Origin: Aphrocallistes beatrix
Taxonomy: Eukaryota; Porifera; Hexactinellida; Sceptrulophora; Aphrocallistidae
DNA: 64,000 bases
Assembly: GCA_963281255.1 (NCBI GenBank)
Contig: OY725502.1
Coordinates: 2,914,001 to 2,978,000 of the forward strand
Direction: 5' to 3'
A program made the position numbers and the translations under genes. The notes under the pieces were generated by a model. It did no database searches, was not told the origin of the DNA, and worked only from the letters and a program-made list of their open reading frames with translations. Positions 3,829-14,689 of the stretch are shown here, one piece after another; within the stretch, counting starts at the first letter, position 1, and every line of letters begins with the position of its first letter.

Positions 3829-3863
3829 CAGGGGCGTCGGAAGCAAATTTAAAGTGGGGGGAC

Positions 3864-4181
3864 TTTGATGCGCAATGATGACGTCATAACAGGATGATGA
3901 GCAATCATTTTTTTGATAGTTATGCCATATGTGTGATATATTAATATACATATTCTATTAAAATTTCAGCCTTCTATCCCTTAAAATGGCTGAGTTATAG
4001 TCGATAAACTGAAATTTCTCATTATAAAAAGGTGACAATGACGTTATAATTCCATGATGAGTCGACATTTTCGTCTGAACTCAGAACTTACTGGAGCCAT
4101 AGCCAAAAAACTCCCACATGTCAAAATCCGCTTTCTGGGTCTGACAGTTTCTTCAATCAATTCGTTACAGATATATATATA
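3864..4181 (-). mobile_element. Helentron-like repeat (HINE-A), 5' half
   Basis: Minus-strand copy of the family consensus from the TA-repeat and GTAACGAATTGATTGAAG word (right side) to the CATCATTACGCATCAAA region. It lacks the 3' hairpin end. Carries one TGACGTCA. Confidence 0.8.
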
Positions 4182-5902: not shown

Positions 5903-7271
5903 CAGGGTGGGCCAAAAAAAACACCACCGGCTGAAAATTTGCTGTCATTTTTTTGTTTTAGTTAGTAGAATCAGTCAAACTCGTGGATAATTAGTTTAAA
6001 CGATTTAGAAAACATAGCAATAAACGAAATGTTCGAATCTCGAACTTTTCCTGGACTCATAGGAGATGCTCAAAATGACCCCCTTTCAAATCTTTGCATT
6101 TTTTGAGGCGCACACAGAAGTTGTTCATTACTCGTTTAAAAACTTCCGGTTTGATGGCTCTAACTTCGTCTCGAATCTTCTTCTTCAGTTGTGTGATGTT
6201 CCTAGGCTTCTTTTGGTATACCCTATCTTTCAAGTACCCCCAAAGAAAAAAATCTGGGGGGCTGAGGTCCAGAGAATGGGGGGCCCACTCGAGCGGGAAG
6301 TTTTTGGAGATGATCCGCCGTTTAAAGTGTTCCTTGAGCCAATCACGAGTCTTGAGAGCTGTATGTGGTGTCGCTCCATCTTGTTGGAACCATAGCTTTG
6401 GTAAATAACCTGAGAATCGTGTTTCCAGCTCTTTGTAGAACTTATTCAGGACCTCAATGTACCATTCAGCGGTTATTGTAACTGTGGCTCCTTTCGCTTC
6501 AAAAAAGAAAGGACCAATACAGCCTAATGTCGAGAGTGCACACCAAACTGTGACTTTCTGGGAGTGAAGAGGCTTTTCTACAACCTCATTTGGGGGCTGT
6601 GTACCCCAGTAGATGTTGTTTTTGGAATTTACGTGCCCATCCAAGTGGAAGTGAGCCTCGTCTGAGGTGAAAAGATAGGGCAAAAATGACTCGTTGTTCT
6701 CGATCTTGTCCATCAAAACCACTGCCATTGCTTCTCTTCGTGTCTTATCTGACTCTATGAGCTTCTGTTTAGTCTGAATGTGATAGGGGAACTCATGTAG
6801 GTCATCATTAAGGATTCTACGGAGTGTAGTCCTTGCTATTCCTAGGGATTGGCACCTCTTTCGACTGCTTCTTTTTGGAGAATGTTCAACGTCTTTCTTG
6901 ACTCGTTTAATTAGAGCCTCATCTCTCAGTCTTTTCCTCCCAGAATGACTTGCTCGATCTTTAGACTTCTTGTTCAGATTCTGTAAGGTGCCAAACTTCT
7001 CAAATTTCTTCATCCAGTCCTCTATTCTCTTCTTATCAGGCGCTTTGTCGGTTTTAAAAACATGCAAAAACTCGTCCTGAATTTTCACATAGCTCCTAAC
7101 TTCAAAGTACCTCTTCACACACCAAGATCTTTCTTTCACATGCCACTGCTTGCTATTTTGGTCCAAAATAGTGTCATCTGCCATAGCTAACAAATTTGTG
7201 GGGTTAGAGCAAAGGTTATAGTCAGGGTGGGCCAAAATGTAACCCAGTGGTGTGTTTTTTCGCCCACCCTG
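5903..7271 (-). mobile_element. mariner/Tc1-superfamily transposon, apparently complete
   Basis: TA duplications at 5901-5902 and 7272-7273 flank inverted ends CAGGGTGGGCCAAAAAAAAC and CAGGGTGGGCGAAAAAACAC. The right end also holds an internal inverted copy of the terminal word at about 7225-7238. One uninterrupted transposase frame fills the element, so it may be autonomous or only recently silenced. Confidence 0.9.
6057..7184 (-). CDS. mariner-like transposase, full length
   Basis: The frame opens at 7235, but the first 17 residues lie in the terminal repeat, so the start giving MADDTILDQ is preferred (about 375 residues). An N-terminal paired helix-turn-helix region with a basic stretch (SHSGRKR) is followed by the catalytic triad in FTSDEAHFHLDG (D192 of the long frame), WFQQDGATPHTA (D286) and HSLDLSPPDFFLWGYLK (D323, or D328). 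By my count 36 residues separate the second and third aspartates, or 41 to the later one, so this is not classical DD34D mariner. The DDE/D fold cuts and rejoins transposon ends in the nucleus. No stop or frameshift is seen. WAPHSLD replaces the usual WPPRSPD. Confidence 0.9.
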   Translation of the reverse strand: MADDTILDQNSKQWHVKERSWCVKRYFEVRSYVKIQDEFLHVFKTDKAPDKKRIEDWMKKFEKFGTLQNLNKKSKDRASHSGRKRLRDEALIKRVKKDVEHSPKRSSRKRCQSLGIARTTLRRILNDDLHEFPYHIQTKQKLIESDKTRREAMAVVLMDKIENNESFLPYLFTSDEAHFHLDGHVNSKNNIYWGTQPPNEVVEKPLHSQKVTVWCALSTLGCIGPFFFEAKGATVTITAEWYIEVLNKFYKELETRFSGYLPKLWFQQDGATPHTALKTRDWLKEHFKRRIISKNFPLEWAPHSLDLSPPDFFLWGYLKDRVYQKKPRNITQLKKKIRDEVRAIKPEVFKRVMNNFCVRLKKCKDLKGGHFEHLL

Positions 7272-7782
7272 TATGAGGATTGAAATTACAAATATACGGA
7301 TTCTGAATCCTCAGTTGAATGTGATGAGACTAAATTATACAGAAAAGTGTGAATCCAAACACACTGTTCAAAACAAATTGGAAACTAATTAATTGAACGC
7401 GGAGTGGTTCTACAACAGCTTCAGTCTGAAAATGTTTTCGACATAGCTGTAATTTATTACACTATTTTGATAGTCCAAAATAAATGAACAAATAAAAACC
7501 AAAAAAAGTGGGGGGGGCCAGAGTCCCCCAGACCCCCTGCTCCGACGCCCCTGCTTATGAGGAGTGTTTGGATCAAATTTGAGTCCTGTATTGGAAAAGA
7601 CTTTGATTTGTAAAACTTTGCAACAAAGTAGGAAATTAATATACAATTCATGTGTTTGATTTTAAACATAACAAGTAATATACAAGTAATACGGTTAGTT
7701 CAATTAGTTCAAATTATTTAAAGTGCGATCATCGGAACATTTTGAAGAAAATCGATGTAGTATTAATGAAAACGATCAGTTA

Positions 7783-8839
7783 TAGCCTACTCTAATAATG
7801 CCTCACAGTAGACTGAAAATTATGGACTAGGGATGAAGTAGTAGCCGAATGGATTAATACACGATTAGCCTAAAATCGTTAACCATGCAGAATAGGCATT
7901 AAGAATGTATTACCAGCATATATAAACATGGTATCAAAGTACATATATACGTTGTCAAAATTTCGATTAGTCATCATATCATTGCGCAACAGGTCATTTT
8001 AAGCACGATTTTGCAATTTTCTAAGCTGTTTTAACCCTATTTCTAAATGGTATTGAGGTGTGATTTTTCTGTAGAACCAAGATTAGTACTAGTTGATTTG
8101 AAAAATTTAGAATTTTTCAATGGAATGTTGTTACATTCCTCCGTTGCTATGGTAAAGCATTTTGGTCAGTTTGGGCCATCTCGTGCAAACTGTAGTAAAT
8201 AGATCTTCAAATTTGATCGTGTTTGATAGGCAATGGACTACTTACTATTAGTTGATAATACAACCTGAACTTCTAAATTCAACGGATTTTGAGTTATGGG
8301 TTGATTTTAAGAATGTAACCAAAACACTAAATTGTCGCATAACTCTATAGTCTGTGAATTTAGAAGTTTAAATTGTATTATTACGTAATAGGAAGTAGCC
8401 AATTGCCTATCAAATACGATTAAATTTGAAGACCTAGTTCTTACAGTTTCCAGGATATGGTTCAAACTGATCAAAATGCTTTACCATAGCAACGTAGGAA
8501 TGTAACAACATTCCATTGAAAAATTCTAAATTTTTCAAATCAACTTGTACTAATCTTAATTCTACAAAATTATACCTTAATAACATTTAGAAGTAGGCTT
8601 AAAACAGCTTAGAAAATTGTCAAAATCGTGCTTAAAATGACCTGTTGTGTAATGATATGATGACTAATCGAAATTTTGACAACGGATATATGTACTTTGA
8701 TGCCATGTTTATATCTGCTGGTAATACATTCTTAATGCTATCCTACATGGTTAACGATTTTAGGCTAATCGTGTATTAATCCATTCAGCTATTACCGCAT
8801 CCTTGGTTATTTTACTGTGAGGCATTATTAGAGTAGGCG
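7783..8839. mobile_element. Foldback element, 1.05 kb, near-complete inverted repeat
   Basis: The whole element is a long inverted repeat: ATAGCCTACTCTAATAATGC at the left returns inverted at 8812-8838, and the arms pair almost to the centre (about 8310). Closely matched by 57891-58952, with a half copy at about 30120-30470. There is no reading frame. The left boundary of the Ginger target lies immediately to its right. Confidence 0.85.
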
Positions 8840-9152
8840 TGACCTACGTTATATAAGGCCTGTTGCGTAGAACTTTCAGACGCATAGAATTTTCAGACAC
8901 TAGTATTATGGAACCATGGATTCAACTTTGCATAGAATTATCAGACATTACTTTTTAGATTTGTCTATACTGGGTCGTAAATTCTGAGACAGTATGTCTA
9001 TGTACAAATAGATCTAATGAGTTCAGAACGTATAATATGTATTGTGTTTCATATCTAGATTCATTTGCTCAAATTTTATTTTGCGTCTTGTCTTTTTTAT
9101 TGGATTAGTTTGTAAGCTTTTCACGGTACTTGATTATCGCAAAGTTTATTCA

Positions 9153-12100
9153 ATGGACGGTTTACAGTACGCCCAAATCTTTGAATTCCTGAGAGACGGC
9201 AAATATCCGGAAGAATTTTCCCGTCAGCAGAAATGGAACTTCAAGAAGAAGTTAGACACATTTTTCATTTCTGAATCGCAGATACTCTACAAGGTAAACA
9301 CACAATGCACACAAATTATTATTAGTTTGTTTCTCAACATGCGACGCCACAGCATGGCGGGGACATTTTTGATTATCGAGTAATTTTCATGTACGTACAA
9401 AGTTGCTTTGGTTTGACCAAAAGATAATCGCTTGAGGCTGCATGATAGGGACACGAGACTATCCAACAGAGAACAGAGATTGGCCTGTCTTGTGCCATAA
9501 TCAAATCCCGAGAAGGTCACATATTTTATGCATGCCCGCCCGTTTTGTGATTATAATATATCAATACTTATTTTTAAATTAATCACAGAGAGAGATTAGA
9601 AACGGGGAAGAGAAAGACCTGCAGGTTCCATGCCGTTCTGATGTATCCGGTATATTGGAGAAGTACCATGATCATCTACTGCATCCCGGAATGAATGCTA
9701 CCGTTCAATCAATCCAGCAGCGTTATTATTGGCTGGGGATGTATTCAGAGATTGTCAACTACGTGAGTTAGTTCATTAGTTACCAATTACAATTTTTATT
9801 GGATTAACCTTTATTATTCAATTCTATATTAAAAGGTGAAATCGTGTGATGCTTGCCAGCAAAACAAGTCACTGCCACCTCAACCTCAGAGAAAGTTGCA
9901 TCCGATCCCCCCTCCTGAGAGACCATGGAAGCATATCGGGGTTGATCTTATCTGTGATCTTTCACCCAGTCCGGAAGGCTACAAGCACCTGCTCGTTACA
10001 GTGTGCTATTTGAGCAAATACGTAGTAGTGCGACCTCTCAGAAGTAAAACGACTGATGAGGTTATCGAGAACCTGAAAGACATCTACCTCGATGTTGGTG
10101 TCCCAGATATCATCCAACATGATCAGGGCAAAGAGTTCACAAGCAATGTATGTTTAATTAAAGATGCAATTCTAATTTAAACACTGTAGAATCCTTAACA
10201 AGCAAGACTTCTTCCTGAAATTGTACACCTATGCATGTAATCGAATTGAGAATTGTGTTCCTTGTACGTATGTCTATAGTACAAGTCTATACTAGTAGCT
10301 AACCTAACTAAACAATTTAACTGTATCGATTTGATTGAAATAGATATCCTTTTCTTTTCCATTTAGAGTTTCCAGCAATTTCATCAGGAATTAGAAGTCG
10401 ACAACCGGAGTACTCGCGCCTATCACCCTATGGCAAATGGACTGGTCGAAGCGCACAACAAGATTTTAAAATCGTGAGTGGTATTTTATTCAGTTATAAA
10501 ACAAGTTATGTATAATTATTAAATAATGCACTAATTTATAGCAAGTTGAACAAAATGACATTTCAGACTGGGAAGCATTGGTCTTCAGTACTTAAACCTG
10601 CAGTCCTATGTATGAATTCTACTGTTAAGAAGTCGCACTCATACACTCCCTTTCAAGTCATGTGGGGACGGGAATCGAAATACGAGAATCTAGTCTCGAG
10701 TATATCTAAGATAGATGTATCACATGACGAAGACTATGAACTCGAAGAAGCTATCATTTCCGAATCTGTGGCCATCGAGGAAGGGTGCGAATTGGATATG
10801 TTTTCTCCTCCTGATGACCACCTAGAATCGATTCATCTCCTCAATGAGTCTAGGAAAAATACCTGCGATCTTGCGAACGCCTCAATAAGATCAGAGCAGC
10901 TAAAGCAGAAGAGGCAGTATGATAAGAAAGTTAATGAAAAGAGGCAAGTTATTTTTCTCAGTTATTGAGTAAGCACATTAGTAAGTTAACTCTAACAATA
11001 TAGTAGTACGTACAATCGAAACCGGTTTTTTCTTACTCTGTCTTTATAGTTTCAAACAGTAAGAAAGAAACCGATGGAAATTAATATAAATTTCGATTTT
11101 TTACTTCATAAATAGTAAGAAAAACTGTATGATGTTTGTTATAGTGTACTACTGAACATATAGGTGTAACATTAAGGAAGGGGATAAAATCCTATTTACA
11201 AACATCCCCAAATTGAAAAAGATGCCGAATACTAAAAGCCAGTCCAAGTTTTTGGGGCCTTTTACAGCATCCAAAATTACTGACAGCCACGCTATTATTT
11301 CAAAAGAGGAACTGAAATCTAAGAAGGATAAGAAAGTACCTATCCACATTACCCAACTCTATCACGAGCGTCAGGATAATTCTGGCAAAATTACTCTGGG
11401 AAAAAGAAAATCAGTTGCGAAAATTGATAGTGATGAGGTCAAAAGATCGAAGTCTTCACACGTATGTTCTATTTTTGAATGAATTGCGTGATCATGGTTA
11501 TCGTATTGATCTCTCTGTTTTCTAGACCCCACACATTGAATTTGGATTTACAAGTGAAGCAATTCATCATCATCTAGCCAACCTCAAGGTATTTGACCAG
11601 TTTTGTAATAATAATATCATGCTATGCTTGCATCCTTTTCCATGACTTGCTTCTCGCAAGAACTCTGACGTACATACAAGGAATGCATTCTTCTATCGAG
11701 ATCAGCGCTTGTTATTTTCATTAATCATAGACAAAATATTTACATTAACTTATTGTATTTCAACTGGTAAAACACTTTCTTTATTTCTAGATTATTCTAA
11801 GGGAGAATGTGAGCAAGGGCACTTTCCTGACGCCATTGCACGAAGACCTGCATAAGAAACTCAATCGATTTCACCATTATGTTCCGAATATCTTCATTTT
11901 TAAATTTCTTAAAGACTCGGATGAGGATCAGATGGTAAGTAATTATCAACACTAAGACCCATTGATTTTAAATACTCGACTAATAATTCCAATTTAGAAG
12001 CAGGAGATCAGAGAAACTGTATTGAGCTGGACTACAGAACTATATCCAGAATATGGAGATATCTTGGCTGCAAAATACTCTGAGAAAGTTCTATATGGAG

Positions 12101-12971
12101 TTGTGAGTTTCGTTTTTAAATTTTAATATAATATGGTTAATAATAAAATGTTTATATGTTCTTATAAAAAATCAATCTACTGCTGAACTTACGAATGCTC
12201 TTTTTGGTAGTTTACTTAATTAGTCAGTCGAGACTTGTTTCATGCCCTTAGATTTATTTATTGTAATATATTATCATTTAGGCTGTCCAATTTCTGAGCG
12301 CTGCTCTTTGGGAATCGTTCTCAGACAATTCGACTCTCATTAGCCCCAAAATATCTAGTGTGATCCCAAAAATCAGCGTCCTTTCTGAAAAGTGGCTAAG
12401 AGAGAAATGTGCAATATTTGGGCTGAAATTCAACTCTGTAATTCGGCAACCCGGTAACCTCACAAGTCAGTTACTTTCGCGCTACCAGCCATGGGAGACC
12501 GAGACTATCGTAGGCGATGGAAATTGTTTATATCGATGCTTAGCAAAAGTCTTGACTGGGGAAGAAGACAGCCATCCTCAAGTACGTAAAATCATCTCTC
12601 ATTTCATCGCTTGCGAAGGTACTACAAGACTTGCTTGGTACTTTAAACAGAAACAAGTAACCCCGTGCGACTACCTATTAACCGAAAATCCCAGTTATCT
12701 TGATGGAATTTGGGGAAGTGACGTAGAGATCATGGCAGCGTCTGCTATCTTTAATGCAGATATATACGTAGCCAATAGCTTCAATCAAGGAACCTCGCTT
12801 ACTCGAGTTGTGAGATGGAACCTGCTCAGAGCCACTACCAATCCGGAGGCATCCATCTACATTCAAAATTTTAACCTCCACTACGAACTCGTCATTTCAA
12901 TGATTAACTCCATTACCCCTTCCTATGGGAACATATCCAGTGATGATGTTCAGATCCTCGACTCTGAATAG
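9153..12971 (+). CDS. Ginger integrase-like transposase with OTU protease domain (10 exons, 811 aa)
   Basis: Exons 9153-9293, 9589-9762, 9836-10147, 10367-10473, 10542-10943, 11164-11461, 11526-11588, 11791-11934, 11998-12102 and 12282-12971. Phases agree throughout. All junctions are GT-AG except intron 5, which uses a GC donor (AG/GCAAGT). An HHCC zinc finger spans exons 2-3 (HDHLLHPG, then CDAC). The integrase core has D142 (GVDLICD), D201 (QHDQGKEF) and E237 (GLVEAHNK), an exact DD35E. A GPY/F motif follows as KFLGPFTASKI. The C-terminal OTU cysteine protease shows VGDGNCLYRC (C664) and H782 in NLHYELVI. The start ATG is in a CAATGG context. It should excise and integrate the element; the OTU domain probably removes ubiquitin. 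No break is seen. Confidence 0.93.
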
Positions 12972-13057
12972 CTTTTACAACAAAATACTACTATTAAGTA
13001 CAGACTCAGTGTTTACAAACGAACGATACTATACAGACTTTGTGTTTACATATAGAC

Positions 13058-13110
13058 GGACCTAGCTGGCAACTAGCCAGCCTGATGAGTCTTAGATAGA
13101 CGAAAGGTCT
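13058..13110 (+). ncRNA. Type III hammerhead ribozyme motif
   Basis: Stem III strands GGACCT (13058-13063) and AGGTCT (13105-13110) pair fully, with one G-U at the outer end. The cleavage triplet is C-U-A, with A at 13064. Stem I is GCTGGC/GCCAGC with loop AACTA. The core CTGATGA is at 13082-13088, stem II is GTCT/AGAC with loop TAGAT, then GAA plus A15.1 at 13102-13105. Every conserved core base is present. It lies 87 bases after the transposase stop and upstream of AATAAA near 13386, so cleavage would separate the coding part of the mRNA from its tail. Activity is inferred. Confidence 0.85.
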
Positions 13111-13496
13111 TCCTGAAGATAAAATTAGCGAATGTATCTATAAAGACACCATGACACAGCGGAACAGTCTCCTACACCTTAACACCATAATTATAACCCG
13201 ATTATCGCATGTGATGTGATGTGTATCATCATGGAATTATTTAACGATGTACTTTATTTTACAGTAACATATTATTTCATCTACTAATATTAATTATAAT
13301 CAATGTGTGTTTGCATGCGGAGGAAAACAATATTTTGTGCAGGTATTCCTGAATGTATTTCAATTATTGATCATCATATTCACTTCAATAAATTACATAT
13401 ATCGCGACACAGGAATAGAATCTAATACTTGTATATATACTATTTAAATATTCCTTGAAAATGAGTGGTGGTTTAAATTAAATTTTGTTTCAATAA

Positions 13497-14395
13497 CGGA
13501 AACGACTGAAAATTCTACGGGTAGCATGTATCATAGATTCTAATGGAAATGTCTGAAAATTCTACGGGTAGCTATGTATAATAGAAACTAATGGAAATGT
13601 CTGAAAATTCTACGGGTAGCTATGTATAATAGAAACTAATGGAAATGTCTGAAAATTCTACGGGTAGCTATGTATAATAGAAACTAATGGAAATGTCTGA
13701 AAATTCTACGGGTAGCTATGTATAATAGAAACTAATGGAAATGTCTGAAAATTCTACGGGTAGCTATGTATAATAGAAACTAATGGAAATGTCTGAAAAT
13801 TCTACGGGTAGCATGTATGATAGAATCTAATGGAAATGTCTGAAAATTCTACGGGTAGCTATGTATAATAGAATCTAATGGAAATGTCTGAAAATTCTAC
13901 GGGTAGCTATGTACATATAATAGAATCTAATGGAAATGTCTGAAAATTCTACGGGTAGCTATGTACATATAATAGAATCTAATGGAAATGTCTGAAAATT
14001 CTACGGGTAGCTATGTATAATAGAATCTAATGGAAATGTCTGAAAATTCTACGGGTAGCTATGTACATATAATAGAATCTAATGGAAATGTCTGAAAATT
14101 CTACGGGTAGCATGTATGATATAATCTAATGGAAATGTCTGAAAATTCTACGGGTAGCTATGTATAATAGAATCTAATGGAAATGTCTGAAAATTCTACG
14201 AGTAGCTATGTATAATAGAATCTAATGGAAATGTCTGAAAATTCTACGGGTAGCTATGTACATATAATAGAATCTAATGGAAATGTCTGAAAATTCTACG
14301 GGTAGCATGTATGATATAATCTAATGGAAATGTCTGAAAATTCTACGGGTAGCTATGTATAATAGAATCTAATGAAAATGTCTGAAAATTCTACA
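13497..14395 (+). repeat. Minisatellite of about 19 units carrying the Ginger terminal motif
   Basis: Units of about 47-53 bp with core GTCTGAAAATTCTACGGGTA followed by GCTATGTATAATAGAA-like spacer. The core is nearly the element's own terminus (TCTGAAAATTCTACGCAACA). Variants differ by insertion of ACAT in the spacer or by GCATGTATGAT. Possibly amplified transposase-binding sites, at the 3' end only. Confidence 0.9.
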
Positions 14396-14465
14396 GCAAA
14401 GTTGAATCCATGGTTTCATAATACAGTGTCTGAAAATTCTATGCGTCTGAAAATTCTACGCAACA

Positions 14466-14689
14466 GGCCTATTCACCAACTAAATTTTTCTGAACCATGG
14501 ATAAAAGGAAGTCCATTGTTTCAATTGATGTATATGTAGCTAATTGACATAGTCTCACTATTTTCAAGCTTATTAAAATAGAAGTACTTTACACAGTGTA
14601 ATTGGAATACAGAGAGTACTATGTAAAATTAAATATGAATTATAAAGAAGTGAAACTAGGACTAATAGTACTTGGAAAAGAACTATGAA
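14466..14689. other. Flank of Ginger; copy of the empty-site repeat
   Basis: The first 55 bases match, inverted, 19450-19522. The rest is unassigned AT-rich sequence. Confidence 0.5.

Follow-up and report, generated by a model that had tools for sequence, protein, structure and literature searches.

We found a constrained type III hammerhead ribozyme standing in the Ginger1-like DNA transposons of Aphrocallistes beatrix and common to a Mutator-like element; the hammerhead claimed from the letters in an earlier note on this DNA is real, and the finding is larger than that claim. The window, that is, the whole stretch analyzed, comprises 64,000 nt of the forward strand (assembly GCA_963281255.1, contig OY725502.1, positions 2,914,001 to 2,978,000). 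From sequence, predicted fold, constraint and position we infer catalysis and every functional step: the hammerhead is probably functional and selected, an old integral part of this genome's Ginger1-like OTU transposons, and would self-cleave and thereby process the transposase transcript.

The window hammerhead is complete at 13058–13110 (plus strand), with all core parts and three stems. Stem III is formed by GGACC (13058–13062) and GGTCT (13106–13110), as supported by sequence, fold and alignment, and has five pairs, one of which is G-U. The next two bases (13063–13064) are those that we take, from hammerhead numbering, to be U16.1 and H17 (A13064), with predicted cleavage between 13064 and 13065. 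Stem I follows at 13065–13081 (six pairs, 13065–13070 with 13076–13081, around loop AACTA at 13071–13075), then the core element CTGATGA (13082–13088), stem II at 13089–13101 (four pairs, 13089–13092 with 13098–13101, around loop TAGAT at 13093–13097) and the core element GAAA (13102–13105), both core elements being supported by the copies. Stem III is open, and loops close stems I and II. The core bases, three stems, 5-base loops and open stem III drawn in the earlier note were thus all located, and its type III topology and cleavage site agree with both the sequence and the predicted fold.

When positions 13056–13116 were folded with RNAfold, the hammerhead was both the minimum free energy (MFE) and the centroid structure (–20.5 kcal/mol, z = –2.56). 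We searched both strands of the window with a type III descriptor (CTGANGA, GAAA and U-H, with at least 4, 3 and 4 pairs in stems I, II and III, respectively), and obtained one match, at 13058–13110, compared with none in 60 dinucleotide shuffles of the window. Similarly, the 24-base string from CTGATGA to GAAA occurred once in the window at up to three mismatches and in none of 100 shuffles. A chance origin of the hammerhead is ruled out by these two controls. The CTA of loop I is complementary to the TAG of loop II, a three-base match of a kind not rare by chance in such short loops; two of these pairs were kept in 20 of 22 alignment rows and the third in all 22, and none covaried. In excerpts of Perreault et al. 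(PMC3088659), a two-pair difference in stem length is tied to pseudoknots in type III hammerheads, and the window stems of six and four pairs fit this difference.

The Rfam type III model (Hammerhead_3, RF00008), by which the earlier note proposed to check the ribozyme, did not accept the window copy. The window copy scored 19.9 bits against a gathering cut-off of 48.5 (E = 0.14 in 529 bases), no match was obtained anywhere in the window at the gathering threshold, and the window hammerhead was absent among the 54 matches listed genome-wide (68 of 13935 candidates scored). The copy L021 likewise remained below the cut-off, at 25.5 bits. This cut-off is a detection threshold and not a defining feature of hammerheads. 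Among the 54 listed matches, 16 were located 60–325 nt after an OTU match (controls 0 and 0).

The ribozyme is carried by a Ginger1-like DNA transposon on the plus strand. Since its ends, TGTTGCG and CGCAACA, are flanked by GGCC (8857–8860 and 14466–14469), we placed the element at 8861–14465, with a 4-bp target site duplication (TSD). The terminal inverted repeats (TIRs) start with TGTTG and are about 95–100 bp long (8861–8960 and, in minus orientation, 14366–14465, inner ends approximate), and the 5′ TIR contains three matches to TAGAATTTTCAGAC at no more than two substitutions. Two other copies, L014 and L016, have the TSDs GAAC and GGCC, respectively, at both ends. The transposase is represented by a stop-to-stop frame with the integrase core (9833–10180; rve, PF00665, E = 3.4e-8), by a frame taken as its continuation, which is matched in other copies and has no Pfam match (10516–10968), by a frame with KFLGPFTASKI, likewise without a Pfam match (11156–11482), in which a GPF motif known from the Ginger paper was recognized by eye, and by a C-terminal part with an OTU cysteine-protease domain (12282–12971; PF02338, E = 7.7e-8). 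Both Integrase_H2C2 (E = 1.6e-12) and rve were detected in copy L016, and a Pfam scan of five frames of the window element gave no match to a reverse transcriptase or GIY-YIG domain. The OTU stop codon occupies 12969–12971, so that 87 nt precede the hammerhead. No AATAAA or ATTAAA is present between stop codon and ribozyme in the window copy, and a candidate poly(A) signal (AATAAA) lies downstream at 13387–13392. The setting given in the earlier note, the 3′ untranslated region (UTR) of a Ginger-type transposase, 87 bases past the stop and before the poly(A) signal, therefore holds in each respect. Elsewhere in the window, 7826–8807 is a foldback element with long inverted arms, relatives of which lie in or beside Ginger copies such as L014, L015 and L018, and a minus-strand frame of 417 aa at 6057–7310 contains a DUF4817 helix-turn-helix and by eye resembles mariner.

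The sections of Bao et al. (2010; PMC2836005) seen describe Ginger1 elements as having TGTNR ends, TIRs of about 40–270 bp, a 4-bp TSD, a Gypsy-like integrase with an H2C2 zinc finger and a DDE core (rve), GPY/F and YPYY motifs and a C-terminal OTU or Ulp1 domain. The window element resembles them in its ends, TIR length, TSD length, integrase and C-terminal OTU domain. The TSDs found here (GGCC and GAAC) differ from the CCGG and CCGT of the same source, a preference seen there in Hydra elements; because the TSD reflects target preference and differs, we call the element Ginger1-like. Relative to the Ginger1 elements of those sections, the ribozyme and an array of 48-bp motifs are additional features.

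We searched the 100.5-Mb assembly by BLAST with a 201-bp query around the ribozyme and fetched the copies with 4-kb flanks. This yielded 28 copies, including that of the window, and in 19 of them the match ended at query positions 101–113, which correspond to the 3′ end of the ribozyme. Pieces of the Ginger protein were matched by 22 of the 27 fetched copies (tblastn), the remainder being L015, L028, L029, L034 and L035. Ginger protein remnants thus accompany 23/28 copies (window included), L015 is tied to Ginger through a DNA match to the OTU end, two copies (L028 and L029) belong to Mutator-like elements, and no recognized gene was found near the decayed copies L034 and L035. Under the rule that CTGANGA, GAA, U and H be present, the core was intact in 21/28 copies, or in 17 of the 24 distinct copies of alignment A1, which omits L016–L019 because their sequence there does not differ from that of L021. 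The core was broken in L014, L015, L027, L030, L032, L034 and L035 (7/28), yet L030 matched all four transposase pieces; L011 falls within the rule but has GAAC, so that its 15.1–16.1 pair (A15.1-U16.1) is broken.

We compared the hammerhead with four-fold degenerate OTU sites among diverged clades. The hammerhead was identical at 49/51 positions between the window and L020, compared with 39/67 four-fold sites (Fisher's exact test, P = 1.1e-6), at 48/51 compared with 15/37 between the window and L030 (P = 3.4e-8), and at 48/51 compared with 14/32 between L020 and L030 (P = 4.2e-7). Identity was thus 94–96% (88–96% in a second alignment) versus 41–58%, values that are biased upward for the hammerhead because the copies had been selected for similarity to the same stretch. 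The other copies do not display the decay at the neutral rate that the earlier note had named as the result that would speak against a ribozyme. In a longer UTR alignment, 13058–13109 was identical to the window at 50/52 positions in L020, 46/52 in L030 and 44/52 in L028, and identity dropped over 13110–13210 (45/93 in L020 and 31/95 in L030; 32–48% overall). The 60 nt on the 5′ side of the ribozyme were 63–88% identical to the window, so that conservation extends to the upstream block but is stricter in the ribozyme.

Among 22 distinct rows, 88% of 418 stem cells were paired, compared with 22–44% in slid versions of the alignment. Thirteen cells were changed on both sides, compared with 3.9 in shuffles (0/500 as high), and the covariation score was 0.134 compared with 0.107 (1/500 as high); as the rows are related, these figures are support and not proof. 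Changes on both sides were evident in stem I, in which the pair of columns 11 and 26 is C-G, U-A and U-G in seven rows each, and the pair of columns 14 and 24 is G-C in 15 rows and A-U in three. By clade, stem I reads GCTGGC/GCCAGC in the window, GTTGGC/GCCAAC in the L030 clade and GTTAGC/GCTAAC in the Mutator copies. The numbers of pairs with two-sided change (4; 89/500 shuffles as high) and of further pair types (14; 152/500) were unremarkable, and stem III was weak (78% of cells paired).

To cover more diverged elements, the core pattern CTGATGAGTCN{3,14}GACGAAA was searched genome-wide; it occurred at 45 places and, when reversed, at none. The letters were read for the fetched loci, and the other places are known by match position alone. 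Among the OTU matches listed, an OTU match precedes 30/45 places by 84–353 nt on the same strand, whereas the upstream and opposite-strand controls gave 0/45 each. OTU identities at these 30 places were 43–100%, being 58% or less at 16 of them. Together with the RF00008 matches, 39 distinct OTU-linked places were obtained. The other 15 pattern places comprise one in L026 (Ginger), one in L029 (Mutator), 11 in the loci L036–L050 and two without an assigned context (C10:2861543 and C10:2997069). Conversely, 150 of at least 151 OTU matches were compared with the complete sets of 45 pattern and 54 RF00008 places, and 41/150 were followed by a core. By identity among the matches listed, these were 16/21 at 70% or more, 15/67 at 45–69% and 10/62 below, and this list is free of the likeness bias of the BLAST copies. 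No core followed the other 109 listed matches in the exact pattern and RF00008 searches; many of the 150 are fragments, and some Ginger clades may have lost the ribozyme or may carry a form that these searches miss. L021 has a further OTU copy, on its minus strand (54% identity), and reading 300–760 by eye revealed no core there.

With a looser pattern, the first 100 of 206 places were taken (reversed control, 53) and compared with 74 OTU and 76 integrase matches on C1–C8 and with 59 Mutator matches, namely the better ones and a few weaker ones, including C4:4612713, which was added after its core had been noticed. Of these 100 places, 28 were Ginger-linked and three Mutator-linked, compared with two in the upstream control and none on the opposite strand.

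The locus L052 provides a divergent example, in which 102 nt separate the hammerhead match from a preceding OTU with 43% identity. Its stem I is TTGCG/CGCAA with loop GGAGGCAA, followed by CTGACGA, stem II (GTCC/GGAC, loop AAGCCG), GAAA and stem III (GTG/CAC). All 12 pairs (5 + 4 + 3) form, and by eye 8/12 differ on both sides from those of the window; since L052 was recruited by hammerhead models, this pairing is partly selected. Its RF00008 score was 31.6 bits, below the 48.5 cut-off, its MFE structure is a fold other than the hammerhead, and loops I and II have the complementary stretches GGC and GCC, short matches of a kind not rare by chance. The comparison suggests that L052, as modeled, keeps the same fold with other stems.

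The same module was found in a second transposon superfamily. In L028, a Mutator-like transposase was recognized by Pfam (PF20700, E = 1.1e-16) together with a PHD finger, the frame of which ends at 3846 of that locus; the core starts with CTGATGA at 4083, 237 nt past the frame. The related copy L029, which is damaged, matches L028 at 85% identity through and beyond the module; as the likeness does not stop at its edges, the module is part of this element and did not insert recently. The stretch common to Ginger and L028/L029 is about 115 nt long and consists of two upstream repeats and the hammerhead. In these Mutator copies, AATAAA or ATTAAA occurs between stop codon and ribozyme (by eye in L028; also in L029), and no convincing TIR was found within the 8-kb loci. 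A third Mutator remnant, C4:4612713, which was picked after its core had been noticed, has a looser core 186 nt downstream. We know of no Mutator-like element with a hammerhead, and literature pairing the two, judged by titles, yielded none. The Mutator-like frame at L028:1190–2389 also contains GGVEPNPGP, which we take to resemble a 2A peptide.

Other hammerheads were met in the course of these searches. The loci L036–L050 contain a second class of type III hammerheads, with 12 places over the RF00008 cut-off and scores of up to 60.6 bits, and no OTU match was nearby among those listed. Eight of them (L037, L039, L041, L042, L045, L046, L047 and L049) have about 80–220 bp around the ribozyme in common, like a small repeat family. 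In L036, two strong hammerheads lie in opposite orientation in 171-bp inverted arms (1414–1584 and 2490–2660; 94% identity) 905 nt apart, which places the ribozyme within terminal-repeat-like arms. The type I model (RF00163) gave three weak matches genome-wide, none above its cut-off. The 24-base string of the window, covering core, stem II and loop II, recurs unchanged in two IMG/VR contigs (L054:3097–3120 and L055:8872–8895, minus strand), where by eye both look like type I hammerheads between genes. These exact matches were rejected as Ginger relatives, as both contigs are phage-like and the core is otherwise arranged.

Upstream of the window ribozyme, 12998–13057 (plus strand) is a conserved block of two imperfect repeats, TACAGACT and GTGTTTACA, predicted to pair with the 3′ half of the ribozyme. 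The block is conserved in both superfamilies, Ginger and Mutator-like (identity to the window: L020, 49/56; L030, 36/56; L028, 44/60). When the longer context of 12972–13160 was folded, the MFE structure paired the ribozyme 3′ half with upstream sequence and was not the hammerhead, which lay 2.5–2.7 kcal/mol above the MFE, compared with a mean of 0.7 when the upstream sequence was shuffled. Such pairing would, in these models, make cleavage conditional. Relative to the mean obtained with 40 shuffles of the upstream sequence, cross-pairing was higher in 9/12 copies (for example, window, 10.2 vs 5.0; L013, 13.9 vs 5.8; L030, 8.0 vs 4.4) and lower in L022 (2.1 vs 5.6), L029 (7.6 vs 8.1) and L012 (0.4 vs 8.0). 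Several margins are small, and because of this mixed outcome, we keep a switch between block and ribozyme as a lead only.

Downstream of the ribozyme, an array of approximately 48-bp units (13494–14458) runs into the 3′ TIR. With up to two substitutions allowed, array and TIR together contain 21 matches to GTCTGAAAATTCTA, which is complementary to the TIR motif. Each of these lies 3′ of the ribozyme, and the three forward matches of the motif lie in the 5′ TIR, with none between there and the array; the corresponding counts in L016, taken with that element's variant of the motif, are likewise three forward and 21 complementary matches. These units are perhaps a row of transposase binding sites. 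The predicted duplex with 5′ TIR RNA was strongest on the array and TIR side (–92.8 kcal/mol), followed by 13065–13490 (–29.3) and the UTR before the cut (–15.7). As all complements are 3′ of the predicted cleavage site, a cut would divide the coding mRNA from them. It is conceivable, if rather doubtful, that this is the purpose of the ribozyme, cleavage parting the transposase mRNA from the complements of the 5′ TIR, by which transcripts that cross both TIRs would otherwise fold back into self-dsRNA and feed RNA silencing. The one-sided distribution of motifs in both elements and the predicted duplex energies are consistent with such a role, whereas the two cleavage products could still pair in trans and the Mutator-like loci display no convincing TIR.

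In the reading that we prefer, transcripts reading past the OTU stop would cut themselves between 13064 and 13065. The coding sequence and the conserved 60-nt block would remain on the 5′ product, whereas the array and 3′ TIR would go with a 3′ product that begins with a 5′-OH; the poly(A) signal, too, would be lost from the 5′ product. The ribozyme would most likely serve to process the transposase transcript post-transcriptionally and so to set the amount of stable mRNA, perhaps tuned by competition among ribozyme fold, upstream block and polyadenylation. We infer 3′ processing or control of the mRNA, self-limiting or regulated, as the plain reading, and relief from self-dsRNA as the boldest. 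The weak points of the ribozyme reading are the rejection of the window copy by the Rfam model and the conserved upstream block, which in the models can compete with the fold. Self-limitation in particular, the main suggestion of the earlier note, in which cleavage would strip the poly(A) tail, lower the amount of transposase mRNA and keep copy number low, is possible but not the likelier case: the window ribozyme does lie between stop codon and poly(A) signal, and the 3′ UTR hammerheads of mammalian Clec2 genes are a precedent (PMC6155905, in the portions seen), although selection on single copies should favor losing such a brake, and cores persist after OTU genes with identities down to 37–43%.

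Two further alternatives were weighed. The conserved stretch might be a DNA or RNA module for protein binding, the hammerhead likeness being relic or chance; the conservation of the adjacent 60-nt block and the low Rfam score would fit, but the covariation in stem I, the fold of L052 with different stems and the exact core at the same place in many copies render this improbable. Even less probable is a single past insertion into Ginger of a small retrozyme, or of another element with a circular RNA, that has been carried along since. Strong type III hammerheads without a Ginger gene found nearby do exist in this genome, but the fetched elements have one strong match each with no dimeric arrangement, and L034 and L035 alone among the 28 copies lie beside neither Ginger, by protein or by DNA, nor a Mutator-like element. 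Beyond the preferred reading, in a speculation to which we give little weight, the block and hammerhead of about 115 nt would form a 3′-processing device exchangeable between class II elements (Ginger1-like and Mutator-like), with the block as a switch and the cut before the array of TIR complements serving escape from silencing.

Hammerheads comparable in one respect or another are known from several systems. The type III hammerheads of plant LTR retrozymes and viroid-like RNAs have the same core and the same open stem III, but retrozymes, in the parts of PMC4918200, PMC7761336 and PMC7229834 consulted, have hammerheads in pairs about a circle that encodes no protein, a retrozyme being a non-coding element with a hammerhead in the direct repeat at either end; the present DNA transposon codes for protein and has a single hammerhead, in its 3′ UTR. 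Penelope-like elements and Terminons contain a hammerhead inside an autonomous transposable element, as here; these are type I variants in retroelements (extracts of PMC6431247 and PMC7229834), unlike the present type III hammerhead in an integrase and OTU element with TIRs. The discontinuous Clec2 hammerhead is also in a 3′ UTR and could limit its mRNA, but belongs to a host gene with a helix I of 150–1500 nt (PMC6155905, in part), compared with a transposon gene and a 6-pair stem I. L028 resembles Mutator-like transposons in its transposase (PF20700) and has the hammerhead module in addition. In the portions of PMC6155905, PMC7761336, PMC7229834 and PMC6431247 seen, eukaryotic hammerheads are placed in Penelope-like elements, Terminons and retrozymes, and further in satellites or tandem repeats, circular RNAs and a few host genes. 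The term 'DNA transposon' has no occurrence in PMC6155905, nor 'DNA transpos' in PMC7761336 and PMC7229834, and PMC6431247 was the sole literature match for 'ribozyme' with 'Ginger1', from which it follows that PMC2836005 lacks the word ribozyme. In agreement with the earlier note, which knew of no hammerhead in a cut-and-paste Ginger element, no hammerhead in any cut-and-paste transposon was found in the literature searched, parts of which were seen in excerpt and which covered subscription papers and preprints thinly, so that novelty of the DNA-transposon setting is likely and not certain. The hammerhead itself is thus of a known type, and its setting in the 3′ UTR of a cut-and-paste transposase is likely new.

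If these interpretations are true, DNA transposons of two superfamilies also use catalytic RNA, and the Ginger and Mutator-like hammerheads would be a possible source or sink of other genomic hammerheads. They would also offer a simple, testable system for the control of transposase expression by such elements.
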